Below are positions 1,439 through 41,136 of a stretch of 43,023 nucleotides of DNA, one piece after another. This DNA comes from a bacterium (lineage in GTDB: Bacteria; Patescibacteriota; Gracilibacteria; Absconditabacterales; Absconditicoccaceae): assembly GCA_020631605.1 (NCBI GenBank), contig JAHDGZ010000008.1, positions 1-43,023 on the forward strand. Reading direction: 5' to 3'. Every line of letters begins with the position of its first letter. Positions within the stretch are counted from its first letter, which is position 1. The translations under genes were made by a program, and so were the position numbers. The notes under the pieces were generated by a model. That model searched no databases. It worked only from the letters and a program-made list of their open reading frames with translations, and was not told the DNA's origin.

Positions 1439-3580
1439 TTATTCTCTCCTACTAAACTCTTGTATCAGATCATTGTCACTATGATGCTTTTGAAGGTAGA
1501 TCTTGAGTGTCTCTTTTGCACGTTTGAGTCTCATTTTTACTGCTGACTCGGTGATATCATACTCTTCTGCTATTTCCAGAATACTCTTGCCTCTTTGTTG
1601 CAGCACAAAAACGGTTTTCAGCTTTGCTGGTAGCTGTTTGATAGCATGCTTCAATATACCTGCTAGGCTTGTTATCTGTGTCTCTCCATAGTGAATATCA
1701 TGCTCTTGTTCAGTGTACAAGTCATTTTTTGTTCCGTATACTTCATCAATATCTACTGTGTTTATCTTCTGCTGTTTGATAGTCGATAAAAAATAGTTTT
1801 TCAATGCTCTAAACAAATAACTACGAAGTGTTGCAGTCGCTTTGTATCATGTCCAACGATAGAGTCAGTAACTATTCTTGCCAGCAATATTTGCAAAAAA
1901 ATCATGCAACAGATCCTCAGCTTTGTTCTTATCAAACTTACAATATTTCATCGCTCCTCTCATATAGTAGTCATAGTTTTCTTTGTTCTGGAGATGACGA
2001 TCAAAATCTGCTTTTCCAAACAGTCGATCTGCCGATCCTTGTCAATTTTTGACTGTCGCAAGCAATATATCTTTGACACTATCACTATCTCCGAGTATTT
2101 GTGAAAACACTAGCTGAGACTGAGTAATGCGATTTACAAAATTGAGTAAGAGTAAATACAGTGTCTTGTCATCTAAGTAAGTACTAATATGTTTTCACCA
2201 CACCTTGAGTGGCATATTCTTTACCGCTGATCTAACAAAATTAAGATCTTTGTTCTCCAACATCTCTACTACTCTCTCTGAGTTCATCTCCTGCTGGGCA
2301 TCATCAAATGAAAGAATATGTCTCACAAAAAAATCTGGATACAATCGAATACCAAACCTGATGTATTGGTCTAATCCATTTTTTTTCCCAATACTCTTAC
2401 CTAGAATCAATCATCCATAAAGCCTTATCTGGGAGAGCGACTTTTCTGATCACCTCGCGAGAAACTTGATAAATCAGTTTCTATGCGGTGTATCTGGCAC
2501 TGCTAGACTTCTATACTCCTCTAGGAGATAATCTACGACATCTGATTCCATCTCCTGATTCAATGCTGCTCTTATCTGATTGAAGACAGGTATCACTTTC
2601 TTGTTTGAGAGATTCTGTTTGAATACTTGGGCAATTGGAGTACCTTGATTTGATGCCTTTTGACATAATAAAAAAATCTCTTTCTCTAGATCCCATCATA
2701 ACTTCTTAGCTATTGCTTCTCTATGTTTGAAAGACAAGTAGGTGTCATCAGTTTCTAGCATCATTTTGAGTCCTCATCGCTTGTGTCAGCTATACTTGAT
2801 GGTATCTTGATGTGCATTCATCAGTTCCAAAGCACTGGTGATTCAGATTTTTTCAAATTCATTTCTGTAGTCTTCCTCCAAACTCCACCCTAATGCTTGA
2901 GCAAACTTATAGACCTGGCTTCTCTTCAGCCTTGTTTCTGTTCTCACCACATAATTGACTATCGCAGAGCCAAATTGTTGTAGGATGTTTGCATTTCACA
3001 ACTCCAAAAGATCTGTACAAGATGTTACTCATCACTCTTTCAACAATTCTCTAATATCCTCTAGATAATCTCGTCAGAGAGCATAGCCAATCTCTTTGAG
3101 GTCATCTACGCTAATTTCACGACAATAGTAACCTAGCAAAGCTGAGACATAGGGAGATGGAAGCTGTCTCGCTTTTCTAGTTCATAGTCTCATAAGCTCG
3201 AGACCATTGGTGACTCAGAGACCTTGCAGTTGGGATCTAATCACATCAGGAGCTTCTGGCGCAAGAGCTTCTCTCTTGTTACGTAAGATTTCCTGGTTGT
3301 GTTCAGCCTTGATGTTTTTGATTAGCTCAAAGCGAAGACTAGATAGATGCTCACTACTCTCTTCTGTATCGGTCAATGACATTGAAAATAGTTTTGCTAT
3401 CTCTATCTCCTTTCTCTTTCTTTTGTATCTGGAGCGCTTGAACTGATAATAATCACTAACAGTAGCAAAAAATGACAACATCTCATACTGCTCACCCGCA
3501 TAGGTCAGCTCTCCTTGTGACTCCAGATTTGAGATTGTAGGATCTGATTCTTTCTTTGCTAAAACATAGGTATTTTTCAT
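1439..3580 (-). CDS. Sigma-70-like factor fused to N-terminal 62-aa repeats, 713 aa
   Basis: Read with UGA as Gly this is one open frame of 713 codons with 17 in-frame UGAs; under the standard code it shatters into pieces. The C-terminal ~190 residues look like an ECF-type sigma factor: a region-2 core around AEDLLHDFFANI (residues 554-565), followed by an aromatic W-containing helix and LRSYLFRALKNY (about 584-595), then a region-4 helix-turn-helix (about 638-698) with LPAKLKTVFVLQQRGKSILE and ITESAVKMRLKRAKE. Upstream, residues about 120-300 hold tandem units with a period of exactly 62 residues (GVT at 123-125, GVT at 185-187, GIT at 247-249), each followed by a hydrophobic DL/EL helix; the unit LG-W/R-xxLE precedes each. 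Residues 300-520 are helical and unassigned. ECF factors are normally near 200 residues, so the long N-terminus is the odd part. It may sense a signal or hold the sigma module inactive. Confidence 0.75.
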
Positions 3581-3720
3581 CTATTGACATTCTACTAAAC
3601 AAACGTATTTGTGTTTTTACTTACCAGAAAATCAACGCAACAAATGACTTATGTGTTGTCAAAAAATACTAACAAAAAAATCTCAATCTCTCAATCAATT
3701 TACTATTTTTTTAATCAAAA

Positions 3721-3770
3721 AATCTCACAACGAGATCCCGTTGCGAGATTATAGAATCAACACAACGGGT
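3721..3770 (-). terminator. Terminator repeat, copy 1 (overlapping palindromes)
   Basis: On the minus strand a 10-bp stem (3721-3730 with 3741-3750, one G-U) is followed by a run of U, the form of an intrinsic terminator, 55 nt after the stop at 3826. A second possible stem, CCCGTTG (3737-3743) with CAACGGG (3763-3769), shares bases with the first, so only one can form at a time. Copies 2 and 3 lie at 4506 and 5268; this copy is the most diverged. The rest of the gap 3581-3825 is AT-rich with no other feature seen. Confidence 0.65.
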
Positions 3771-3825: not shown

Positions 3826-4395
3826 TTACAAAGCTGTCATTTTGAAACAATTTTTCCTACCTGCTTCAGCTAGGTACTTTGCATGTGGTGTATAGCCAAG
3901 TGTATCAACTCTCAGCTCCTTTACCTCTCCTCTATAATTTTTCATCTTTACTATATAGTGAGGTTTTGGAAAAGCTTTTGATGAAATAGACTTTGCCGGA
4001 ATCTGATTAGACGTTGGGAACCAAATGACTAACTTGTTCTCTCGACCAAAACCTCTTTCTTCACAAAGTGTATAAAGGCCTCCATGGTGCATAGATCTAA
4101 TTCTTAACTCATCAGTTTTTCCTCTTTCTTTTACTTCTTTCTTGATAGAGTTATACTTCTTCTTTTCCATCACTACCTTGTACATTACTCTTTCTACAGT
4201 AGTGGATGATGTTGGCTCTACTCTAAAAGTAGCTACGGTGACGTATTGTCCCTGTTCAGAAATGAACTCATTTCCTACATACTTTACTTTCAAATAGTCT
4301 TCATGTAATTCCTGATTGCACGAAGTCAGTCCACATGTTAAGATTAGTACGCAAGCTGCCAAAAGGCTCACTCGACTTGTTTTTTTAAATACCAT
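3826..4395 (-). CDS. Putative lipoprotein, 189 aa
   Basis: The N-terminus has the form of a lipoprotein signal peptide: basic residues (FKKTSR, 3-8), a hydrophobic stretch to residue 22, and the lipobox LTSC with Cys26 as the predicted lipidated residue. The mature part is charged, beta-rich and not recognised. It is the third and last of three gene cassettes on this strand, each with its own TTGACA promoter and terminator repeat. All 11 glycine codons are GGN with no UGA, which contrasts with the adjacent sigma-like gene (17 UGAs). Likely anchored in the cytoplasmic membrane facing outward. Function unknown. Confidence 0.75.
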   Translation of the reverse strand: MVFKKTSRVSLLAACVLILTCGLTSCNQELHEDYLKVKYVGNEFISEQGQYVTVATFRVEPTSSTTVERVMYKVVMEKKKYNSIKKEVKERGKTDELRIRSMHHGGLYTLCEERGFGRENKLVIWFPTSNQIPAKSISSKAFPKPHYIVKMKNYRGEVKELRVDTLGYTPHAKYLAEAGRKNCFKMTAL

Positions 4396-4450
4396 ATTCT
4401 GTTTGTTGTTTTTTTAGTTATTTTTTAATTAGCATTTTTTTTATCAATTT

Positions 4451-4478
4451 TTTATACCTTATTTCTTCTTTATGTCAA
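4451..4478 (-). promoter_or_regulatory. Predicted promoter of the lipoprotein gene
   Basis: On the minus strand TTGACA (4478-4473), a 16-nt spacer and TATAAA (4456-4451). The -35 box starts 28 nt from the edge of terminator copy 2, the same distance as in the next cassette. Confidence 0.6.
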
Positions 4479-4505
4479 CCCATTAGGTTTTTCTCTTTAT
4501 TGAAA

Positions 4506-4556
4506 AATCTCACAAGGAGATCCCGTTGTGAGATTTGATAACCAGCACAACGGGAT
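4506..4556 (-). terminator. Terminator repeat, copy 2 (overlapping palindromes)
   Basis: Two perfect, mutually exclusive stems overlap. AATCTCACAA (4506-4515) with TTGTGAGATT (4526-4535), followed on the minus strand by a U-run, is an intrinsic terminator. ATCCCGTTGTG (4520-4530) with CACAACGGGAT (4546-4556) is an 11-bp alternative that uses part of the terminator stem. It lies 21 nt after the stop codon at 4578. Confidence 0.7.
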
Positions 4557-4577
4557 ATGTTTCCATTGTGATAGGCA

Positions 4578-5186
4578 TTACAGAGACTCAAATTTTTCTA
4601 CAAATGGTCTTTTGTTTTTTTGAAACTCTACTTCTGTGTGATCTTGTAATTCATTCCTGACTAACACATAGATCTGATCTTTATCAGGTTTGCGATCATA
4701 GGTTTGTACTTGAATAGTTTCACCTGTAAATGAGACAAAGTCTGCATAGTACGGTATTCTTTTAGACAAAACACTACCTGTACCAGTAATTCTACCATTC
4801 TTGATTTTACCTAACATGATCTGATCCCAAGTCACTATACCACTTGCTTTTACTCTTGTATAGAAGTTTCGATAGCCTGTGTTGCTGATACGTAACGATC
4901 CAGTTTTACTCAAAGGGTACTCATCCTTTGGAACTATGACTCTAATCTCTGGTACATCAACCGATGTTCCTTCTTTCTTAAATCCTTGTACGAGTACAAA
5001 AGCGTTGTTCTCTGACAACTTTTTCTGTTGAGCATTGATGTATCCTCTTTCTTGATTGCTTGGTACATTCAAGACAACCAACAATATTAACATTACGCCA
5101 ACTGCACAGAGTCCAGCTAGATAAAAACTTAACTTTGAGGCATACTTGTAATTACCAACTGCATTGTTTTTTTCTTGTGTTTCCAT
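4578..5186 (-). CDS. Membrane-anchored hypothetical protein, 202 aa
   Basis: A short cytoplasmic N-terminus (residues 1-18) is followed by one strong hydrophobic helix at about residues 20-42 (YLAGLCAVGVMLILLVVLNV), then an external, largely beta-strand domain of about 155 residues. No signal peptidase site is evident, so it should stay attached as a type II anchored protein. I do not recognise the domain. It is the middle of three cassettes with matching promoter and terminator. None of its 14 glycines uses UGA. Confidence 0.7.
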   Translation of the reverse strand: METQEKNNAVGNYKYASKLSFYLAGLCAVGVMLILLVVLNVPSNQERGYINAQQKKLSENNAFVLVQGFKKEGTSVDVPEIRVIVPKDEYPLSKTGSLRISNTGYRNFYTRVKASGIVTWDQIMLGKIKNGRITGTGSVLSKRIPYYADFVSFTGETIQVQTYDRKPDKDQIYVLVRNELQDHTEVEFQKNKRPFVEKFESL

Positions 5187-5212
5187 TCCTATTTTTATTT
5201 GCGTGAGCCCAT

Positions 5213-5240
5213 TTTATATATATTTCTTTCTTTTTGTCAA
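5213..5240 (-). promoter_or_regulatory. Predicted promoter of the anchored-protein gene
   Basis: On the minus strand TTGACA (5240-5235), 16-nt spacer, TATAAA (5218-5213). It begins 28 nt beyond terminator copy 3, repeating the arrangement at 4451-4506. Confidence 0.6.
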
Positions 5241-5267
5241 CTACTATATGATTTTCTTTTATTTAAA

Positions 5268-5318
5268 AATCTCACAAGGAGATCCCGTTGTGAGATTAGA
5301 TAACCAACACAACGGGAT
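5268..5318 (-). terminator. Terminator repeat, copy 3 (overlapping palindromes)
   Basis: Nearly the same sequence as copy 2. The terminator stem is 5268-5277 with 5288-5297, with a U-run on the minus strand; the alternative 11-bp stem is 5282-5292 with 5308-5318. It follows the small gene ending at 5365 by 46 nt. Confidence 0.7.
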
Positions 5319-5364
5319 ATACTTCCATGGTGAAGGTATTCTGTTCTTTCGTAGCTTTACTATC

Positions 5365-5508
5365 CTAAAAGATAGCACCACTAATAAACCAGTTTTTCAA
5401 TGCAATTGTGAACCATACTAGCAACAATGAACAGAAAGTTGGCTCTAATTGTTTTCTTTCGTCAAGATCTTCTTGAGTTGTTTCTTGTTGTCTTTCCATA
5501 CTACTCAT
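5365..5508 (-). CDS. Small single-span membrane protein, 47 aa
   Basis: A 47-codon frame from ATG 5508 to TAG 5365: a charged N-terminus rich in Gln and Glu (residues 1-22), then a hydrophobic helix (about 25-46, with FCSLLLVWFTIAL). It was accepted as a gene because it sits between a good promoter (5538-5565) and terminator copy 3, exactly as the two larger cassette genes do. A second ATG three codons in is possible. Function unknown; it may be a small membrane regulator or toxin-like peptide, but nothing in the sequence decides this. Confidence 0.55.
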   Translation of the reverse strand: MSSMERQQETTQEDLDERKQLEPTFCSLLLVWFTIALKNWFISGAIF

Positions 5509-5537
5509 TATTTTGATTTTTTTGATTTTGAATTTTT

Positions 5538-5565
5538 CTTATATATTTTTAGATGATATTGTCAA
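5538..5565 (-). promoter_or_regulatory. Predicted promoter of the 47-aa gene
   Basis: On the minus strand TTGACA (5565-5560), 16-nt spacer, TATAAG (5543-5538). This is the third promoter of the same architecture in 1.1 kb. Confidence 0.55.
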
Positions 5566-5588
5566 CCATTCTTGTTTTGGGTTAGTTT

Positions 5589-5694
5589 AAGTTTCTCTTA
5601 AGGTGATTAGTTATCATCCTCCTTGCTCGATCAGCAGTCGCTTTCGCAGGGTACAGTACTCACTCGACTACTTCTTACCCTGTTAGAGCTATAT
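5589..5694. repeat. Tandem non-coding element, copy 1
   Basis: A roughly 105-nt element repeated 140 bp downstream at 5729. The most conserved part is a 34-nt block (5651-5684) identical in both copies; the first 16 bases and a CTCCTTGCTC segment are also shared. In this copy CAGGGTA and TACCCTG (about 5648-5682) can form the base of a hairpin. No reading frame is conserved between the copies. Confidence 0.65.
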
Positions 5695-5728
5695 TATAAG
5701 ACTATCTATAGTGACTAGACAAGAGATT

Positions 5729-5838
5729 AAGTTTCTCTTAAGGTACATAACTATACTCCTCCTTGCTCATCAGCAGTTACCTCTTGCGGAGTACAGTACT
5801 CACTCGACTACTTCTTACCCTGTTGGAACTATAATACT
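5729..5838. repeat. Tandem non-coding element, copy 2
   Basis: Second copy, offset by 140 bp; the identical 34-nt block is at 5791-5824. It is followed at once by TATAAT (5830-5835), 45 nt before the ATG at 5881, and copy 1 has a similar CTATATTAT at the same place. The element may therefore be a duplicated promoter/operator or 5' leader module. No clear -35 box lies at the usual distance, so recognition might need an activator bound to the conserved block. Confidence 0.6.
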
Positions 5839-5880
5839 GTATAGATGAATTCAACCCTTTATTCTTTGTTACTTACTATT

Positions 5881-6612
5881 ATGAATACTTTACAAAAATC
5901 GTTGATTATAGCTGCAGGTGCAGTGTTATGAGGTTCTGTTATGGGAACTATGTATGCATTTCCTTCAGCAGAAAAGACTGAAGTTAGATCAGCTATAGAA
6001 GCTAGTGACTACTCTCTTCTTTCTGACGAATCACAAACTAAAATTTCTGAAGAGAAATTTGAACAAATGATAGAAAGAAAAGCTACACATCAAGCAGTAA
6101 GAGATGCTATAGATGCTGGAGACTACTCTCTCGTACCAACAGCTGCACAAGAAAAAATTTCTGAAGAGAAATTTAATGAGATGCTGGAACGCAACGCACA
6201 AAAAGATGCTGTACAATCAGCTATAGAAGCTGGTGACTACGAAGCATTTAAAAATGCTGCTGGAGATAAGAAGCTGGAAAAAGTTTCTACCGAAGAAGAA
6301 TTTAATGCGCTTGTAGAGAGAAAACAAACTCTAGACGTATTGAAAGAGAAAATGGAGGTTGCAGTCCAGAACAATGACTTCGCAAGCTTCCAAAGTATCA
6401 TCTCTGAAAAACAAGAGACTATGGAATCTTTCAGATCTGATGATAGATCTAACAAAAAAGTAAGAACTGAGCCTACTACTGAACAACTTCAAGAAAGATT
6501 TGATAGTGCTGTTCAATACTATGCTGAAAATGGTGAACTACCTCAAAAACGCAACAAATGAAAAAAAGGTAAAAGAGGTCAAAACCAAGGATTTGGTTGA
6601 AATAGAAAGTAG
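5881..6612 (+). CDS. Exported repeat protein with Gly/Asn/Lys-rich tail, 243 aa
   Basis: The gene starts at ATG 5881; one UGA lies in the signal segment and two in the tail, which a standard-code reading would cut off. Residues 5-29 form a hydrophobic signal/anchor. Residues about 34-165 hold three copies of a 40-odd residue unit of the form AI(E/D)AGDY followed by ISEEKF and an (M/L)(I/L)ER helix; the third copy is diverged (STEEEFNALVER). The C-terminus (about 200-243) is basic and low-complexity, rich in Lys, Gly, Gln and Asn. Such AxxAGDY repeats with basic tails occur in CPR exported proteins of unknown role. A strong hairpin terminator follows at 6645. Function unknown; a cell-surface or nucleic-acid-binding role would suit the charge pattern. 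Confidence 0.75.
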
Positions 6613-6644
6613 TCACTGACTACCCTCACATATGCTTACTCATG

Positions 6645-6676
6645 AGACTCTCCACTACAGGAGAGTCTTCTTTTCT
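6645..6676 (+). terminator. Intrinsic terminator
   Basis: AGACTCTCC (6645-6653) pairs perfectly with GGAGAGTCT (6660-6668) around a 6-nt loop, followed by TCTTTTCT. It ends the unit of the repeat protein. Confidence 0.8.
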
Positions 6677-6739
6677 ATTGACTTTTTTCTTTTTTAGTTT
6701 ATTGATAATTCACTATTTTTTGATTCCTTTACTCAATCT

Positions 6740-7912
6740 ATGAATCTACAACAAGCACTAGAATCTCAAGACCTACTGGAATCCGTAGTCAAAAAAATAC
6801 CTGTACTTCATGGAAAATCGCTTCTTGTAGATTTCACATGATTGAAACATGGTCTTTCGAAAGCTTTTGAGCCACAGATCGCAGAACAGCTATTCACTTA
6901 CCATGCTGGTTATGATTTTCTCAAAGACAAAACTGCTCCTTATGATATCGCACGTATCTTTTTGACGATAGAACCTAAGCTCTACAAAAGCAATACGTTT
7001 GCCCATCTGATCAACCGTTCAAGAGAGAACTATAGTGAGAACCCTCACAATGACTATATGATGGCACTCTACTATTTTACTGCTATGAAAGCTGGTGAGC
7101 TCACTGAACCCCAAGAGTCGCAGATACTAGAACACTTAGAAAAGGCTCTTATGACTATTGAACCTCATGATCAAGATAGCGTCAACAAAATTTTGCCTAT
7201 TGATCAAAGCCTATGTGTGTGTCGTTGCTATGCATTGATGGGAGACTATTATTTTGAAAAGCAAGATCGAAAACAAGCTGCAGGTGCATACTGACTTGCC
7301 CTGAGCACACAACATACCAGTACTATTGATAAAAACCGAGAAGAGTCGGAGAAATGGATGTATTTTGAAGGTATGTCGCAGCGATACGCAGGAGATCACA
7401 ATGAGGCTTTTGCAGCTATGAATACGATCATTACTAATATCTGATTTGAAGAGCTCTACGCTATCAATCCTGATGAAGATTTTGAAGATATTGATATCAT
7501 TGATAGTGTGGCCCACAACTTGCAGGCTATCATGATTTGTTTAGATTGTGAAACTGCCAATCTTGAAATTATTGATGAAGAACTATTCAAAATTAGAAAA
7601 TTGATTGATAAATTTGATCTTCCAGAAACACTATCAAATTTATACTATTTTTGTCTTGGACGATACTATGCACTTTCACCTGAAGAATCATGACATGAGT
7701 TTGCTTTAGACTGTTTTCAACACATCCCAGTCTATCCTGAAACTGGCTTAACGAAGGAAATATGGGAACATATCAATTACTATCTACAGACTCGTGAGAT
7801 GAAAGTAGTACCTTGATCAAAAAAAACGGACAGCCTTCCTCCTACTTCTAATACAAACAACTCAGAAGGTAAAATTGTACACATACACAATTACAAGAAG
7901 AATAACAAGTAA
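6740..7912 (+). CDS. Hypothetical helical (TPR-like) protein, 390 aa
   Basis: One frame with several in-frame UGAs, ATG 6740 to TAA 7910-7912. The sequence is rich in amphipathic helices with small residues at turn positions (for example MALYYFTAMKAGE around residue 114, and CRCYALMGDYYFEKQDRKQA near 157-176, a typical TPR unit), so it probably forms a tetratricopeptide-like superhelix for protein binding. There is no signal peptide or membrane segment, so it should be cytoplasmic. The last 30 residues are polar and end in a Lys/Asn-rich stretch. I do not recognise a specific family. Confidence 0.7.
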
Positions 7913-28995: not shown

Positions 28996-31900
28996 ATGCG
29001 AAAAAATCTCTGACAGCGAATCAATGCCCATAAGGCAGGTATCTCTTTGGTACTAACTGTTTTCGTTGTTTCATATATTCTCCAGGCAATTAATCCTTGG
29101 ATTGATAGTCTTCAAGCAGAAGACCCTATCACGAACACTAATCTGGTTGCTATTATTGTAGATGAAGCGATCTATGATGACATTCAAGATGATATTGAAT
29201 GGTATAGTACAAACTATATTCAGGAAAAACTTAGCGATACCAAAGCGGTAGTACTACCTATCAATACTACTACATACAAAGCTCGAGATGTTGTTACTCT
29301 CTTGGATAATCTCTATTTTGCATGAATAGAGGAAGAGACCTCTACTCTCTTGGGAACTATTCTCATAGGAGATATTCCATTGCCTGTCATACATGAGCAG
29401 TGAATTGTTTTTGATAGTGTTTACCCATATACTGATTTCGAAGATCCTCAATATATCTTTTTTTCTGATACTAATACTTTTGAACCCAACCCAGTACCTC
29501 AAAGCAATCCTCAACCAGAGATCTGGCACTCCTTGATCCCATTTTGAACTGATATTGATGCATACACTCACTTCTTTGCCAAGATCAGAACATATCATGC
29601 AGATCCAAGCTGATTTGTAGACAAAAAAATCTGGTATGATGATTTCATCCAGATGAAGGAAACATTTCTCGCCAACAACTTAGGATACTATGCGAACAAT
29701 TTTCTCTACGCAGAAGATCTGTGATATCACAGACTCACTACTCTCCTTTTGGATCTCATGAAACAATGACACCATGATGTCGTCAGTAGCGCCTTAGGTG
29801 ATTTGGAAGATTCGATTGCGGATGAAGATTTTGAACCAAATAGTGATTTTGAGGAATTTGATCAAGCTCTTAGTGACTACCAGGAGCTCTTGTGATGACA
29901 TTTAGAGTGAACTGATGATGCGCTTGCTGCTAGTGAATCAACGCAAACACCTACTCTCTTTCTCTCCCAGGCACTCAAAGAGTTGATGCTTCCGTACGCT
30001 GAACTGTTTGCTCCATCATATCGTAGCACTATGGCTGATAGATTAGAAGCTACTTGAAGATGGTCTATTGATGAGAATGAAGTACATTCTCATGATCGTA
30101 TGACCACCATCATTGATGATAGAGTTATCAACAACCTCAATGTCAACCGTTCACCCATTTTGATAGATTTTAATAATCTTTTGGAAGATGCTCTCCTAGA
30201 GAAAGTAAATGACTCTGAATATGCTATGCGTGTACCACTATTGGTACGTTATGAAGAACATGAAAAGTCAATCGACAATAGTCTCGTTAAACTTCGTTGT
30301 GGACCTATTGATGTACAAAAATGGAGAGATAATGACTGGCGAGGAACAATGAATCATATGTTTGAAAACTTCTATCGAGGGACTAATGCTCAGTATATTT
30401 CTGGAACAGATCAACTGAGTATCTACAGATGAACATATCTCAATCTGACATGAATCTGACCTCTTACGTGATTGGCCTATCAGGACATTAATCTCATGAC
30501 TGATATTACCAACAAATCTATCGGATGAACATATTGATTCAACGATAGACAAGTCATCGCATCTAGATGATACAATAGTATGAATGTGGAAGGTGACTTA
30601 GAAAAATTTGATGAACGTGGTGATGTTATGGACTGATGTGACGAAGATGACATCGATATGCAGGAATTTATTCGTTACTACCGATGAGGTCATAGTGCAC
30701 TCAACCTTGAAGCTGATGACAATGGAAATCTGACTCTCAAAGAATCGCTTCCTGAGCTTGCGTGGAATCCAGCATGGAGTAACAATCCAGATCTTTCACC
30801 TCATAGTATTGGTGGATCACTTTTTGATATTGGATGATCTCGTTTGACACAAGAAGAAATCCCACTCACAAATTCTATTCTTCGTATAGAAGATGGATCT
30901 GTGCAAAGAACTATGTACTCCAACTGATCAATATTCAACTGGTTCAAAGGTGAATTTGGAAAAACTGATCACTGATTCCCTTTCAAGAAGAAAGTGTACC
31001 CAGTGAGATACTGTAAAGAAGATGAAAGACGTGTGTTCACTGGTTCGCTTTCATTTTTTGATGTGTTTGAGCCTGATCAAGTTGACAATCGACTACAATC
31101 AACACACTATGTACCTCAACAAGAAGACTGGCTTTGTGGAAAAAAACCTAGTGGTGACCCTTACTACTTCTATTTTAAAATACTAGACAGTATAGTAGAC
31201 AACAGCTCCCCAACAACCTGAGATATCTCATGATTTTCTGTTACTACTCCGGATAGACCTGTGACTAGTATCAGAAATATGACATTTATGTGAGTAGGTG
31301 GAGAAGTCGTCACACTGCCCTATCCTAATCTCTACCACGCTAATATCTACAACGAAATACAAGGAAAACAAGTACTCAAGAGTCCTGTGGAGATTGAGCA
31401 ATCACTACGTGACTACCTAAGCTCTACTGTCACATATTACAACGAACAACTTTCTTCTCAACTCAGTGGTAGTTCACTTTACTATGCATCTCAAAGTGCA
31501 TGATTTGACTTTTTATGAACAGTTGATCCAAGAGCTACGCCACAACGTTCATATGAATTACTGGACACTAACTTTTTTGTTGATCTCATACCACAAGATG
31601 CCCTCACTATGTTGTCAGAACAACTGTATCGACAGAATCTTTCATGGGAACAAAAGCGTCCAGGAAACAATGTGATGCAGGATATTCAGTTCGCTTTAGA
31701 TGCCACTAACATTAACCCCAAAGTCTCTCACGTATTGACTGAATACCTTGTCCAATGAAATGAAGAACAACCACTGTATCGCCCTGATTATAGTGAAAAA
31801 TGATATGAAGTTGCTTATATCAATTCTGATGGACAAGACTACTTACTTGATCCAGAAGCTACACCAAGTATTGTGAGTGACATCCAACAGTATGGTCTCA

Positions 31901-34900
31901 CGCTTCCGTGATGAGCTCGTGATCCCCAGCAAACAACGACTGCAGTTTCCACTATTTGTGATTATACTATAGGAGAATGACTACTAATTTATGATATTAA
32001 GTCATGAGATTCTCCTTGGCGAGAAGCGATCAAATGCTGGATGAAAGAGATTAAAAAACCTATTGAAATAAAACTTATTTTTGATGGTGATGGCCCGCTT
32101 TTCTTCCCAGAAAGTCGACTAGGTATTGTGAGCACAGGAGATGACAACAGTCAGAATGGTTTTGGACAACGACGAGATCAGACTAGTGATCAGTATTCCT
32201 CTCAATGGAGCGACTATAGTGAACAATGGCGTACTCTCTTAGAGAGAGATAATGACAATGATGAAACATTAGAAAACAGCTCTGAAGAAGATCAACAATT
32301 TTTCAAACGAATGTTGGAATATATTGATCTTGATATGAGCACTCACCGTATTGGTGTAGAAGATGATTTGACTACCCGTATCTACTCGAGCAAAGATCTA
32401 GGTGACATCACTGTTACTATTGAAGCCACTGGAGCAAATTGTTTCTGAGCTGTTGGTGCCTCACCAGATATGTGTTCTCAACCTTTGATCCTAGGTCCAA
32501 GTAATTTCTATGAGACACCAGTAGAATTAACACTATTCCCTACAGATACCACTATTGGTACGACACAGTTACTTGTAGATATTTGTAAAGATGGTCTATG
32601 TGCAAAAAATAATTTTAGTATCGATGTCATTCCTGGTGGAGTTGATCGTGTAGATATCATTACACCTTCCGATACTGCTATCCGTGGTTCATCTATGCCG
32701 CTGGTACTTGAAGCATGGGATTCATATGATAATCCAGTAGAATATGACTTTCGTTCTTATGTACTCACTACAGATACAGGATGATTTTGAGATAGTTATT
32801 CATCTTCTGTCACGTTGCGTGATTTCAAAAATGCGCATTTCATGTATCGTGCTGGTGATGACGCACTTCAAGACACTATCAATCTCTATCAACTATCTAG
32901 CACATGATCTCAAACTCTCATTAGCAACAAACCACTGAGTGTCGCAGAGGGATTGGTTGTTGTAAAAGACGACACAACTACTGTATCTACTCTTGATTAT
33001 CAACTACCCTCACAACAACAAGATCTCTTCACGGTAAACTCAAAAGGAATCGTACAATCCAACAAAGATACTCTCCTCTGACTTACTGTACAGCTTCAAA
33101 GTCCAAACGGACAACCGCTAGCTGGAATGGTTTCTATAGAGAGTCAAAACAAACTCATGGACATATGAGTTATTACCGACAATGTCATCAATGCTAGCTG
33201 AGACATACAATCAGTCTTTGAGCAACAAGATATGTTTATCATAGGAGAAGATGGCTCTATAGATATTTTCCTCTCACCTCGTTGACCATCTGGAGATGAT
33301 ATACTCAGTATTGCTATTGAATGACTGGAAGCGCAAGAGTTCCCATTGACTGTTAAAGCTGGAGCAGCCAAAAAGGTAGAAATATCCGCTCAAACGACTC
33401 AGCTCTCAGCTGGTCAGACATTATCTTGATCTATTGCAGTGACTGATGTATGGGGTAATGCCATAACACAACCTACCTCTCTAACTATAGGAACTTTTTG
33501 ACCAATCTCTTTTTTAGACTGATCATTTCAACAAACAGTCACAACACAATGAGAATACAATCGATCAATTCTCTCTGATGCTGATAAATGATGAAGTGCA
33601 TACCTTTATGCGCAACTTACAGATCTTCCGCTTGAAGAACAAGACGCTGACTATACTGTCTTGAGTATCCAGCACACATCTATTCCACTCACAGGATTGA
33701 ATGCCATGTACTTAAATCTCTGGTGACAAGATTGGACTTCTTATTCTGATACACAGTGAGTGTCTGTCTCCGATATTTTTTCTAGCTCAGAGAAACTCCT
33801 CTGACGAACAACACAACTACATAACCATGAGGAAATGATGTTTGTTACCATTCAAGCAAAAGATGGAATACTTATCAACCATACTGACACACAAGCACTT
33901 CTCTACTTTGGAGATAACAATCCACGTATCACTATTGCATGACAAGCTAGCATTCCATTGCCTGCAAGTAATCAACGACAGGCTCTGTGATCTTGGGATG
34001 ATCTAGGAAACTATCAATCATCTCAGTCTAACAATGTCTACTACATTTCTGAATCAGATGATGATCCTCTGCTTCAGTCACTGTGATCACCATGAACACT
34101 ACCGGCACCTATCAGGAGGTCACTCTTTGACCCTCAACAAGCTATTCATGATCCAAGTGTTGTTATTACTACCACTGACAGACTCTATGGAGATACTATG
34201 ATCTGGGACGTCACTTATAATCATAGACATATTGGTTCACTACTTTTTGATTGGGATGCCCAAAGCATTGATAGCACTACTATTGATGTCACCAATCCTC
34301 TCTTTACGATAGAGAGTATTCCAGAATCAGGATCGACTAATGCCGATACTAGCATCGCTCTTACTCAGCGCATTTCTTACCCATCTTCTGCTGTCTATGA
34401 GTCTATCCAAGATAGCTCTGATGCTGACAATAATGTTTGATTTCTCTGAGATTTTGAAAATATATCACAGTTTGCTCAAGGCATCTACCTTGGAGAATCT
34501 ACTAGGCCAAACGCATCTGCTTTTGTGATCAACTATGGTGACCCCTTACTCACTCGTACTACTACCAATGAGGTAATTGGGAAAAGTAATTTTGATGATG
34601 GAAGATGACATACTGTCTATAGTGATAATGAAAAAGATATTCATCAAGTCATAGATCGTGATATGAACAACGACTGACTTATTGATATGATTATTGTTCA
34701 CACGGATGGAACTATTCGTGTACTGAAAAACTATGGATGAGTAGACAATTTTGTTCCTTTGTGAGACCTTATTCTTATATGACCTGGGGTTAAAGATGTT
34801 TTCGTCTGAGATACTGACTGAAATGGGTACGACGACATTATTGTCTATACAAACAACAATAGACTCAGAGTGTATACCAATACTGAAGGAATCATTGATG

Positions 34901-37900
34901 TCGACTGATATCCTCTTTGTTTGGATGTGTACTGAGGGCCAGATTTGTTTGATAAGGTATGACAACTTTTTGTTCATGATATGGACAACGACTCTATCGT
35001 AGATATTGTTACCAATTCACAAGATGGAAGAATTCAAGTATCTTGGTGATGAGCTAGTGCCCTATGAGGGAACTATATATCTACTGATAGATATACATGT
35101 GATGATGGATGGACAAATAGACAAGATTCTCAAACACTGAAACACTTGTGATTAGAATTGGACCCAACGAGAGCTATATCAGACGCTAGTTTGGTGCATT
35201 GGAATTGACTCCGTTATGATCCATTTGCGTACAATGATGATGCAGACAATCCATTGGAAGGTATGCTTGATTGGTATGACCAAGATCCACCAACCATAGA
35301 TATTGATGATCCTGATGCGATTGATGATTTGATCAACATGGATGATCTTTTAGGACAGATCGGTGATGCGCCACTGGATGATTTAGTAGGAGAGACACTT
35401 GGAGATCAGTACAGATTTAGACTTTCTCCTCTTCAATATATGCCGATATATGAGGACGATCTGAGCATGAAAGAACTCTACTATGTTCCTTTGTATTGAT
35501 TACGTGAAACTGACCCAGTACTAGTTGAAAAATACTATACAGATATAGATGGAGGGACACTCCTCCCTGAAGACACTGTGAGAGTAGATATTGTTATCCA
35601 GTGATTAAGTTCTGGTACGTTTACCTATATTGATAAGCTCTCTTGACCACGAAATGTTCGCTACTCTAATGGGCTTCCACAAAGCTTTGATTATGGAACT
35701 CTACCAGATGGACTTTTTGCTCAGCCGGTCAATGGGGACTGATATCCTTATGTGATAGATGGCATACCTATAGCTGCTGGTCAGGAGTACTCGTTTAGTT
35801 ATGAATTAGAATATCGTTGAGTAGAAATGTGAACTATTATACTCAATGATGAAGATGAAAATGATTTTACTGATGTACTGCTGTATCCAGCAAATAGTTG
35901 TATCAAGGCTCGTTGGGATATCATGAATCTTGGACAAAGAGCATTTGATGAAATATTTAACAATCTTCAAGAAGTCATCGATGACTATGTAGAGGAAGCT
36001 CAAGATAACCAGTCTGGTATGGCTGAGCAATTTTCATGAATGGATATACTTACCAACAACATCATGGAAATCTGGGAATGATGATCTCTTGATCGAAATG
36101 CTCTACAAAGCTGGGTTAACGATTGATGATTGCCAGATGATTTTACTATAGATCTTCCTGATGAAGTTGGTGACTACTATAGTCAGGTAACTGATGGTTT
36201 GTGTAGTTGATTCAATCCAGAAAGTAGTTGTAAGTGACTTCCGATGCCTTTCAATATGGCTTTTCTTTCCCCATGAGTCTACAATGTTATGTGATGTAGA
36301 TTGATGAAAGATAAATGACTTCCCATCTTTCACTTCCCAGGAACATTACAAACACCTGTATGACCTGTACCTTTCCCTTGGTGACAAAAATGACCTGGTG
36401 ATGGTTTCTATTGGGCTGGTGGTGGTGTCTATCCATCTCAAATCAGAGTATACCTATCACCTACACTCACTATGCAACTTTGATTAGCTGTTTGTTTTGG
36501 ACCATACGGAGTATGAGCAAATATCCCTAAACCATTTAGTCATGTTGCAGGTAACTGTATTGTTACAAAAATACCTCTCAACTTCTGTTGAGGTGATAGT
36601 GATGAAGATACAGATCATATACCAATATCAGATGAGTTGTTAGCTCTGGCTGGTCAATGAACATGTTCTGATCCTGGAATGCTTGCTACAGCATGAAATA
36701 CAACACAACGTTTTGGTGCACCTATTATCACTTCACCATTCGGTTATATCAATGTAGATGTTAACTGAGTCACGAACTGATCGGCAGTCCCAGGTGGTGG
36801 TTTCGGTCAATGACTGATTAGTTTTGATACAGAGCCAGTATGATTTATCGATGATGCTAATCTCTTGGAAGAAGAAAGTGTTCTCTTGAAATGAGGGCAA
36901 TCATTCAATCTAAAAGTACAGGGTTGAACTATGAAATGATTAGCTCAATGTGTTGTACAAACATGGCTAGATCAACAGATCAAGTATATGATCAACAATC
37001 TCACTACCATGACTGTTGCTCTCTACTTGCCTCAGTTTGACAATCTAACGCAATGATTTGATACACTAGACTTCAACTTCAAAGATCTCTGGAATCAAGA
37101 TAGACAAAAACTTGGCACAGGACATACTGCTTATAATCCTGAAAATGGTACTAGTGTCCAAGAATGACAAGCCAGCATCATGAGGGACTACAAACTCTCT
37201 CAATCTGCACTTTCAAATGCTTCTCAACAAGCTTTCGTCAATCCTTTTGAATCAATTTCAAAGATGTTTGAGGAAGTGCCACTCGTAAATGTACACACAC
37301 AACATGTCAATATACAAGTACCTATGGTCTATACGGAAGACTTACTCAGATATACCGCAACACTAGAAACCTGGATTGCTAGAAACAGTGCTACTGCCAA
37401 AGATTGGAAAGATATTGCCCAATGAGTCTTGGGCACTTGTGCCAATACTGCATGAGTTGATCCATGACTTGGTGATTTAGAAAAAGCAGCCGCAATTCAA
37501 TCATCCCTGAGTTCTCAACGTGCTCAAAAAATGCAAGCGTTGGACTCTTTGAGAGCAACTGATGTAGATGGTAGCAATGCATGACAAATAGCATCATTGA
37601 GATCAGAGATCAATACCATTGATTCTTGCTTGGATCAAACTCAAGCAGAAAAAATTGATCAACTCATCAATTTCTCTGTAAGTGCAGAGAATCTTATCAC
37701 TAGCGTGAGACAAAACATCAATACACTACAACAATACAAACGTTTTCCTCGTGATCTTTCATCGTGGATGCAATCAGTAAACACCTATATCCTTGATATT
37801 GCTCAGCTTGTAGAAGGGACGATGTGACAGCTTACTGATTGGCTAGATACCAATAGCAGAATTTTTGATCAGTATGTAAATGCTGTGATACTTATTATTA

Positions 37901-40900
37901 GTGTTATGAAGTCTTGGCAATTACTGATCGACCTCTCGGTCAACTGGAAGAAGAAATGTGCTACATGTACCAATGACAACTACGACTATTTTTCTTGTAG
38001 CTTGAGCTTCTTATGTCCAAAGCTACCTGTACTTCCTATCCCTCCTTTCAAAATACCAAACATCTACATCGATGCATCTCATATCGATTTGGGAATAGAT
38101 GTGACACTACCTACGATCAACATGGTACCTACAGCTCTACCAATGCCTGAACTACCAGATATTCCACCACCACCTAGTATCACAATAGATATTCCTTCAC
38201 TGACACTACCGTCTATTCCAGTTATCCCATGACCACCACAGCTCCCTCCATTACCTGACTTTATACCTCGTGTGGAGATGACATTACCAACATTACCTCC
38301 TGCACCAAAAATACCTCAACTAGGAAATAGAATCAAAAAAATCCTCACTATTGGTGAAAACATCTGAACACTTTTCTGTATCATGAAATGATGAATAGGT
38401 CTTGTTGGTGAAGCTAGTGTGAAAAGCAAAATTGAACAACTAACTCAAAGAACATGGCAAGTACCTATTTTTGATTACTTTGATATGACCCAGGTATTTG
38501 GTCAGACTCCCCTCCAATGATTTGACTATCAAATTGATTCATATGTCGATTTTAATGTTAACTTTGATCAAGCGTTCCAAGTAGTTGATGGTGTTGCAGA
38601 AAAGAGTAATGAACTCGTCAACAAAGCGATTAGTGATGTACAAACGAGTATGACAGAATTTAATGGACAAATAAATAATCCATACTTGCAAATCCCAGAT
38701 ATAGATATCTCTATAGATGAAGATCTCTTTGGGCGATACGATTGATATGACAAAGCTCATAACGATCTAACAGAAACACTTCTCGCACTAGAGAATGCAG
38801 ATATCGGCAACAATAAATCTCAAGAAATTCAGGAAATACGTTCACTTCTTGATTCACGTAAGAATTCTATCACTAACCAGTACCATGAAGAGTTAAACAT
38901 AGCTGAATCTAGTATCAGTACACTTATTACATCTTACCAGGAACAACGAAACACCAACTACTCGTTCTTTGGTGAAGAAGACTCTCATGATAGACTCATA
39001 GCTACATTAGAAAACAACTCTGTGATTGATCTCGTTGATGGATGAACATATACTGAAAAACCATCTATTTCTGCCACATTGTTTGCTATAGATACTGATA
39101 CTCAGGAGCTACTTGAACAACAAGAAAGCCCATTACTCACCTACCTCAACACACAACAACAAGTCGCAGATTGATATGCTCAAGCTCTCGCTCGCCACGA
39201 CCCTTCTACTCTTGGTATATCACCACAAAGTCATGAGCAGGCTATTGCAAGCCTACAACATGTTTCCGAGCAATTTAGTAGTAATGCTACTACAACAGAG
39301 AAAAGAATTTCTCCTAGCAAGACTTTGATAACTCAGACTGGCACTCCATCAATCAACGCGCAACTCTTTGATATATCAAGCTACGTACAATGAGTTTTTG
39401 TTCCAGTTGCTAGTGGAAATGTCTCCGTGGTAAACGCAAATCAGTTGGTCAATGACATCAATGAGAATTACTATATGAGTGATATCAACAACGATTGATG
39501 AGAAGATATTATCTTATGGACAGACAGCAAGGTTTCTATCAAATACCATGATCAATCTAGTCACTTTGATAATGGGAATTCGCAATACTATGATAGGTTC
39601 TATGTCTATGATATTCCTTCAGATCCTTTAGGTCGATGAGATGATACCACTCGTACTCGTTCTTGAATGACTCTTGTCTTATGGAACAAGTATCATAGCA
39701 CAAAAAATCTCTCTATTCAATGACAAGATTTTGATAGTATGGTTGTATCTTGGTCATATGACAGCTACTTTGATCGCCATGTTGATGGGTATCTGATGAG
39801 ACTATCTAGTAGATTTGATCAATGGAAGGATAAACAACAAGATAAATGAATTGGTGTAGATACTTTTGATAAATATATGATTTGGCTGCCTGAATGAACA
39901 TCACTTGAAGAAACATTTGTACAACTACCTGAATATAACAATGAGAGAAGTATAGCATCACTTAGTGGAGACTTGATTCATAAGGTACTCTATTATAACC
40001 CAAGCATATTAAGCCATACTTTGACTACTACTCTCTCTGATTTACCGAGACATTGGTGGTATGTACAGGTAGCAGCACTCACTAGTGATGATTCAGAACT
40101 CTCTTTTGTAGGACCATGGAGTAATCAAGTGGTAGCTGGTCAACAGATACTCTCTGATGATCGTGCTCCAGAAGGGATTGCGACACTTGAAAGAATTCAG
40201 ACTGATACCACTGTCTCAACTGGGACACAGCTTTTCGGGTATGTAGGGACTTACTATACCCTTCATTCAAACTGGGAAGATGATATACAGGTTGTTGAGA
40301 GTTGGATAGAACAAGATGGAGAACAACTTGTCTATTCATGATCAGGTTCTAGCAGCCTTACTGGATTGTATTTTACTGGTGTTTGAACTCATGATTATCT
40401 GATTGGAGGTATTGATAGCATGGGGAATCAATGAACGCAGACTATTACTGTAACTATTAACTCACCACAAATTGAGATCAGTCGTGTAGACAAGATTACT
40501 GATGATTTAGGTACTGTAACTGCTATCTTGGACCAAGATATAGATGAATGAATAGTCCAATTTGATCGTAATATAGTATGAGATTGGCAGTTGCTTGCTA
40601 ACGACCCTGACGAACAAACAGATTGGCCTGTTTCTGTTGGCGATACGATTATTACTGGTTGATTGTATACAATTGGTAACGATCTAGGACTGTATAATAG
40701 TAGTGAAGAGCTTGTCGGGACACTTGATCCTGTTACAGGGGAAATTATTCCACAAGGATCTACTTTGGATGTTCTCTTTCCTGGTGGTCAGCCTACGATT
40801 ATTGTTAGTCAATGATCGGATGCACTCTTCAGAATCTCGTTCCCCCCACAAGATGTTGTTGAAGATGATATAACCACCTTTGGCACAACACTCGAAGATT

Positions 40901-41136
40901 TAGTATGAACCAACTTTGGAATCTATAATAACTGATGGTGTGTTAGCAATTGATCTGAGTGTTTAGTGTATATAAGTTCATTCTGACATATCTATGTTGA
41001 TACACTATTACAACAGAGTATGACTGCGGAATATAGCTATAACGAGTGACTCTCTGCGGTAGTATATACTATTCTTTATAATGGCTCACCTATCGTGGAG
41101 GTACCTGTTATTATTCAACCTCTTTTAGATTGATAA
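28996..41136 (+). CDS. Giant surface protein with Ca-loop repeats, 4046 aa
   Basis: A single 12.1-kb frame with UGA as Gly; all its standard-code fragments lie in one frame. One membrane helix/signal anchor at about residues 13-36 puts the rest outside. Parts seen: charged N-terminal domain (to ~1000); two Ig-like units with Big_1/invasin features (about 1217-1253 and 1450-1505, with VxxAWDSYDNPV and VTDVWGNAI); FG-GAP/VCBS-like repeats with Dx(D/N)xDGxxD calcium loops at about 1887-1898, 1939-1949 and 1994-2004, and one far away at about 3496-3505; an acidic Asp/Ile run (about 2095-2125); a Cys-containing region (2400-2560); a coiled, Gln-rich stretch (2730-2960); a Pro-rich region (about 3007-3112, many PxLP); then a C-terminal half with fibronectin-like strands to the end. 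Probable role: attachment or contact with other cells. Cotranscribed with two or three genes downstream. Confidence 0.85.

Follow-up and report, generated by a model that had tools for sequence, protein, structure and literature searches.

A predicted ECF-type sigma factor joined to an N-terminal array of tandem repeats in a code-25 member of the Gracilibacteria

The DNA analysed, referred to here as the window, is a stretch of 43,023 nucleotides from a bacterium of the family Absconditicoccaceae, the source assembly of which comprises 1.10 Mb in 51 contigs and is 86.8% complete. Positions 1439-3580 were found to form a continuous frame with code 25 only, and translation with table 11 yields short pieces. 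UGA is used for 17 of the 41 glycine codons (41%) in the resulting ORF of 713 residues, the share in the long ORFs of the window being 44%. Frame 0 is free of stops from end to end and has mostly the top coding score, with the linker (residues 421-540) included. The continuous frame and the matching share of UGA-coded glycines indicate that the 713-residue ORF belongs, as a resident gene, to a genome that uses code 25. The window also contains, at 28996-41136, a single ORF of 4046 residues with 140 UGA-coded glycines.

The features of the ORF and of its upstream region are the following (G numbers denote genomes):
1439-3580, minus strand: whole ORF, 713 residues, code 25, 17 UGA codons read as glycine, TAA stop
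2303-3580, minus strand: N-terminal module, residues 1-426, with a 394-residue homologue in G001 and relatives in G062 and G029
3065-3253, minus strand: repeat R1, about residues 110-172
2876-3064, minus strand: repeat R2, about residues 173-235, AlphaFold2 pLDDT 63-82
2672-2875, minus strand: repeat R3, about residues 236-303
2294-2671, minus strand: segment of residues 304-429, conserved with G001 and G062, basic (pI 9.5)
1982-2293, minus strand: linker, residues 430-533, predicted helical with low confidence
1475-1981, minus strand: ECF-type sigma module, about residues 534-702, from TIGR02937, PF08281 and PHROG matches
1505-1657, minus strand: sigma region 4 (PF08281), residues 642-692
3666-3694, minus strand: candidate sigma-70-like promoter upstream of the sigma gene, weak match (9/12)
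3721-3750, minus strand: intrinsic-terminator-like hairpin between the 3826-4395 gene and the sigma gene
3826-4395, minus strand: upstream gene with a lipoprotein-like signal, no Pfam match
4578-5186, minus strand: second upstream gene with one transmembrane segment and a short cytoplasmic tail, no Pfam match

The terminator-like hairpin suggests that the sigma gene is transcribed separately, and the genes at 3826-4395 and 4578-5186 are probably not its operon partners. None of the 25 glycines encoded by these two genes uses UGA, compared with 44% in the window, and the same holds for the 22 glycines of three further genes located at 21-389, 389-742 and 977-1390. Because UGA is absent from these glycines, a recent arrival from a standard-code donor is suggested for the two upstream genes, and all five UGA-free genes are likely to be recent standard-code imports. 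A previous sequence-only reading of this DNA had placed the sigma gene beside UGA-free cassettes, which is right as to location; the sigma gene itself is not UGA-free.

The C-terminal module was matched by TIGR02937 with 51.9 bits (cut-off 42.9) over about residues 534-695, by TIGR02985 with an E-value of 2.8e-17, by PHROG 1740 (phrog_1740) at 8e-14 and, in region 4, by PF08281 with 40.8 bits (cut-off 25.7). The region 2 model PF04542 had no match in the gene, and region 2 was detected only through the full-length models TIGR02937, TIGR02985 and phrog_1740, which cover it. From these profile matches the module is assigned as an ECF-type sigma-70 factor with a divergent region 2. As in other ECF (group 4) factors, the full-length match covers one module of about 165 residues, with region 4 and a region 2 seen through the full-length models; the difference lies in an N-terminal extension of 530 residues. 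The same genome encodes a primary sigma factor of 408 residues, two ordinary ECF factors of 190-200 residues and a weak further sigma candidate of 194 residues. Close relatives of the sigma module are lacking in 353 genomes of the class, where the nearest ones are ordinary ECF factors in open frames of 184-236 residues with about 30% identity.

Three repeats of 62-65 residues are present within residues 110-303. Their GV/IT motif starts at G122, G184 and G246, all of them UGA-coded; the spacing of exactly 62 given in the sequence-only reading is confirmed, and its positions 123, 185 and 247 have been corrected accordingly. In a self-comparison, the off-diagonals 62 and 124 scored 42-43, with a shuffled maximum of 35, and the pairs R1/R2, R1/R3 and R2/R3 were 5-6 standard deviations over shuffled segments (p <= 0.002). 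With the TIGR02937 score and repeats above the shuffles, the original proposal of a sigma factor fused to N-terminal tandem repeats was upheld. No repeat was detectable past residue 303 when residues 300-429 and 430-535 were compared with shuffles, an additional repeat at residues 430-533 was rejected, and no homologue of this linker was found. Repeats R1-R3 are slightly acidic (pI 6.0). Searches against Pfam, NCBIfam and PHROGs gave nothing credible on the N-terminal module or on its code-25 homologues; on these searches the module is unrelated to any known enzyme, a match to which would have spoken against the sequence-only reading. The 713-residue protein had no PADLOC match, and its peptide patterns did not match the genome contigs or the viral contigs searched.

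The N-terminal module is present in 4 of the 49 genomes of the family, and one of these carries the sigma fusion. In G001, which belongs to another genus, a complete protein of 394 residues aligns across residues 1-425 (27% identical, MAFFT) and stops exactly at the module end, the next gene being unrelated. A protein of 665 residues in G062 consists of the module and a lysine-rich N-terminal part, and two tandem paralogues of 275-278 residues, with two repeats each, are found in G029. None of the homologues in these three genomes carries a sigma module or adjoins a sigma gene, so that two adjacent proteins with a stop between them were not encountered; the same architecture had been looked for in other code-25 genomes, and sigma with the full module was recovered from one genome only. 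Since three other genera have the module as a protein of its own, the 713-residue protein is, on this distribution, a predicted fusion of a mobile module with a sigma factor, known from one genome.

In two genera (G001 and G062) the module gene adjoins a large family of Cys-rich proteins (580-700 residues), with three tandem copies in G062; one copy was scanned and had no Pfam or NCBIfam match. The loci of module gene and Cys-rich family are the following:
L002:1583-2839, plus strand: G001
L016:3-2117, 4260-6002 and 6092-7843: G062

A TIGR02937 scan of all 49 family genomes, after which 20 unusual matches were read with code 25, has revealed two further extended sigma factors. The first, in G025 (G025:C54, L068:4001-5422, minus strand), has 474 residues with an ECF module at 283-461 and an N-terminus of 270 residues, in which the stretch 216-253 is similar to the initial half of a single repeat (none of 300 shuffles did as well). 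The second, in G062 (G062:C75, L067:11239-14607, minus strand), is a code-25 ORF of 1123 residues with four tandem sigma-like units, matched by TIGR02937 with 81.9 bits in three stretches; in a tree its units are internal duplicates. A resemblance of its N-terminus to the repeat was not significant, with 6% of shuffles as good. The genome G062 thus holds both this four-unit protein and a sigma-free repeat module. The three extended sigma factors (the 713-residue, G025 and G062 proteins) formed no resolved clade in the tree and had long branches. Long extensions on predicted ECF-like proteins therefore recur in the family, and the extensions differ.

A profile built from five sequences found a protein of 688 residues in G347 (E 6.8e-6) with five clear repeats. 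The consensus of the repeat is (A/K)HGITDRxSLLxxGxxxFxxxDFPPYGKGxAFAxxILGxxVxxLSxxHLxRIADxLGxPE. When single-unit profiles were compared, the code-25 repeats matched 81 units of other origin (HHalign 96.4%, E 1.2e-9), and an hmmsearch with the code-25 unit model gave E-values of 1.6e-24 in G099 and 1.9e-16 in G347, the best of 400 shuffled decoys being 0.057. A broad repeat profile located the repeat in 15 of the 353 class genomes (Gracilibacteria/Peregrinibacteria), and among 380 genomes sampled evenly from the phylum it was found in class members only. From these comparisons the repeats apparently belong to an undescribed family of about 63 residues and five helices that has no Pfam or NCBIfam model. 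The FPPYGKG hairpin and the DR after GI have diverged in the 713-residue protein (R1 LPSPYVS, R2 QQFGSAI, R3 GHKRGG), and its repeats are assigned to a divergent branch of the family.

Stand-alone repeat arrays of 430-1030 residues also occur in the class. In Candidatus Peregrinibacteria fen_1329 (G338), at least five genes in tandem each encode 4-8 repeats; these genes (L032/L070, PMDG01000063.1) mostly overlap, and the proteins share an N-terminal domain of about 120 residues (YPIAPEILETRDRELQSRL...). A Peregrinibacteria repeat protein had no match in viral contigs.

Structure prediction with AlphaFold2 for three G347 repeats, using 21 aligned repeat windows, gave a pLDDT of 84.4 and five helices per unit. 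For the 713-residue protein aligned to seven repeat proteins, the model was usable only at residues 110-300 (pLDDT mostly 70-82), where it shows the same helix order as the G347 repeats; the sigma part had a pLDDT below 50. A Foldseek search of the repeat model against the PDB gave no match at E <= 0.001 (best E 3.1), and RadA, the N-terminal domain of which is a helix-hairpin-helix, appeared at E 7.6, which is noise. Sequence searches of the PDB with the alignments A3, A4 and A5 found nothing significant. The repeats share GI-T-xxxL with helix-hairpin-helix domains such as the RNAP alpha-CTD and the RadA/Rad51 N-terminal domain, and those of Peregrinibacteria also share PxhGxGxA; they differ in that HHalign against the alpha-CTD gave 2.4%, the level of column-shuffled controls. 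The helix-hairpin-helix identity put forward in the sequence-only reading was not supported by these profile and fold comparisons. A Cro/C1-type HTH was also considered and gave 15-21% in HHalign over the last helix only, which is not significant; both comparison sets, alpha-CTD and Cro/C1 HTH, were drawn from relatives. HTH_26 was above its cut-off in G347, yet over only 23 residues of the last helix of the repeat.

The repeats were found as C-terminal parts of helicases. Tails of 4-5 repeats follow the SF2 (ResIII/DEAD) helicases of G099 (ResIII 53.9 bits), the frame of which needs UGA read as glycine, and G249 (ResIII 63.6 bits); one repeat ends the G334 helicase, and two C-terminal repeats are present in a helicase-like protein of G319, in which ResIII scored 21.9 bits, just below the cut-off of 22.5. 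The loci are the following:
L153:681-3434, minus strand: helicase and repeats, G099
L154:2012-4711, minus strand: helicase and repeats, G249
L156:60-3113, minus strand: helicase and repeat, G334
L082:187-2301, minus strand: helicase-like protein and repeats, G319

Weak HTH_8-like segments (E 0.007-0.04) flank the arrays at one or both ends in G227 and G207, and in G227 an SF2 helicase gene is overlapped by the gene for a protein with six repeats and HTH-like ends. The G347 repeat protein has, by eye, an HTH-like N-terminus; the gene upstream of its array was considered as a helicase and dropped, having no Pfam match. Mainly because the repeats accompany SF2 helicases and HTH-like segments, we infer that the array may be nucleic-acid-associated.

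In PADLOC, PbeA and restriction enzyme models matched the helicase part only of the G099 and G249 proteins. Proteins of 650 residues in G285 (L086) and G286 (L087) have one partial repeat near the C-terminus, preceded, by eye, by a SAM-binding-like segment.

The reading preferred here, held tentatively and at slightly less than an even balance, is that of a one-protein regulator in which an ECF sigma factor is combined with an N-terminal array that docks on nucleic acid or nucleoprotein. The array would keep the holoenzyme at certain sites on the DNA or at a partner bound to nucleic acid, the sigma factor would come into use only at places suited to docking of the array, and the role of an anti-sigma factor or of an activator would be filled within the same chain. 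This docking is supported by the sigma matches above cut-off, the homology of the repeats, their helicase and HTH company, the five-helix unit and the literature on ECF extensions. According to the latter, such extensions commonly replace anti-sigma factors, with at least 26 groups having N- or C-terminal ones, and work through changes in conformation, contacts with proteins or proteolysis (PMC8999054); for ECF regulation via N-terminal extensions there are no mechanistic data at all (PMC8103513). Counted against docking on nucleic acid were the slightly acidic character of R1-R3, the lack of a fold match, the non-significant HhH and Xre comparisons, the occurrence of the fusion in a single genome and the long stand-alone arrays, which also fit protein-protein scaffolds. 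A regulatory or nucleic-acid role, as proposed in the sequence-only reading, was judged plausible. It seems unlikely that the repeats are a class-wide modular nucleic-acid reader that targets helicases, HTH proteins and, in the present protein, RNA polymerase via sigma, in which case promoter choice would be set largely by the array, as a separate and evolvable element, and not by -10/-35 alone.

Tandem helical repeats generally bind proteins, and the array could instead be a protein-protein or self-inhibiting domain, with partner binding freeing the sigma factor and no contact with DNA, a possibility that we regard as real although on the doubtful side. The TPR extension of ECF42 and the WD40-like one of ECF57 have been so interpreted (PMC8999054), the array region of the 713-residue protein is near neutral or acidic, and stand-alone arrays exist without any enzyme, whereas the recurrent fusion to SF2 helicases and the HTH-like neighbours point to nucleic acid, yet would also allow a protein adaptor. 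Two products might be made from the one ORF, the full-length protein and a free sigma factor from ATG432 or ATG440, so that array and sigma act separately. ATG432 follows directly after CAGGAG and sits just past the end of the N-terminal module, itself a complete protein in G001; this scenario is nevertheless quite unlikely, as the AGGAG-like stretch touches ATG432 directly, the site shows no evident promoter or terminator and the frame is unbroken.

That the sigma part is no longer a sigma factor and has been co-opted as a DNA- or RNAP-binding domain, as may likewise be the case for the four-unit protein of G062, we consider very unlikely. The divergence of region 2 puts it beyond PF04542, and the 1123-residue protein of G062, with its four units, is difficult to interpret as an ordinary sigma factor, but the full-length ECF models match above cut-off with little truncation. 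An assembly or sequencing artefact joining two genes is exceedingly improbable: the fusion comes from a single assembly of metagenome type, with 51 contigs and a completeness of 86.8%, and is not found in a second genome, yet the coding signal and UGA-coded glycines (residues 462 and 513) cross the junction, and a separate sigma gene would have no obvious upstream start.

The preferred reading, a sigma factor with a docking array, has partial counterparts among known systems. The former ECF87-89 (Planctomycetes) and ECF36 also have a regulatory-looking N-terminal extension. No anti-sigma gene has been recognised near them, and of the neighbours here the genes at 3826-4395 and 4578-5186 gave no Pfam match. 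ECF36 carries DUF2275 and transmembrane helices, whereas the present extension is made of class-specific helical repeats, without transmembrane helices or DUF2275. A repeat module is likewise carried by ECF42 (TPR) and ECF57 (WD40-like), at the C-terminus in both; here the repeat is N-terminal and, by Pfam, unrelated to TPR or WD40. Helicase-associated (HA, PF03457) repeats are tandem helical repeats of about 65 residues located C-terminal to SF2 helicases. The present family shares with them tandem helical repeats behind SF2 helicases and differs in its conserved HGITDR, FPPYGKG, ILG and IADxLG, and PF03457 had no match in any repeat protein scanned.

Regulation in code-25 Gracilibacteria is almost unstudied, and none of the papers searched names Gracilibacteria together with ECF sigma factors. 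N-terminally extended ECF factors are already known, and the repeat family is of more interest than the length of the sigma factor as such, the new element being a class-specific repeat array as the extension. The protein provides a small and bounded system, as its extension belongs to a family that lends itself to expression on its own, has natural sigma-free homologues and is found on helicases as well. Should the array turn out to read nucleic acid, it would represent a new route for targeting RNA polymerase in code-25 Gracilibacteria.
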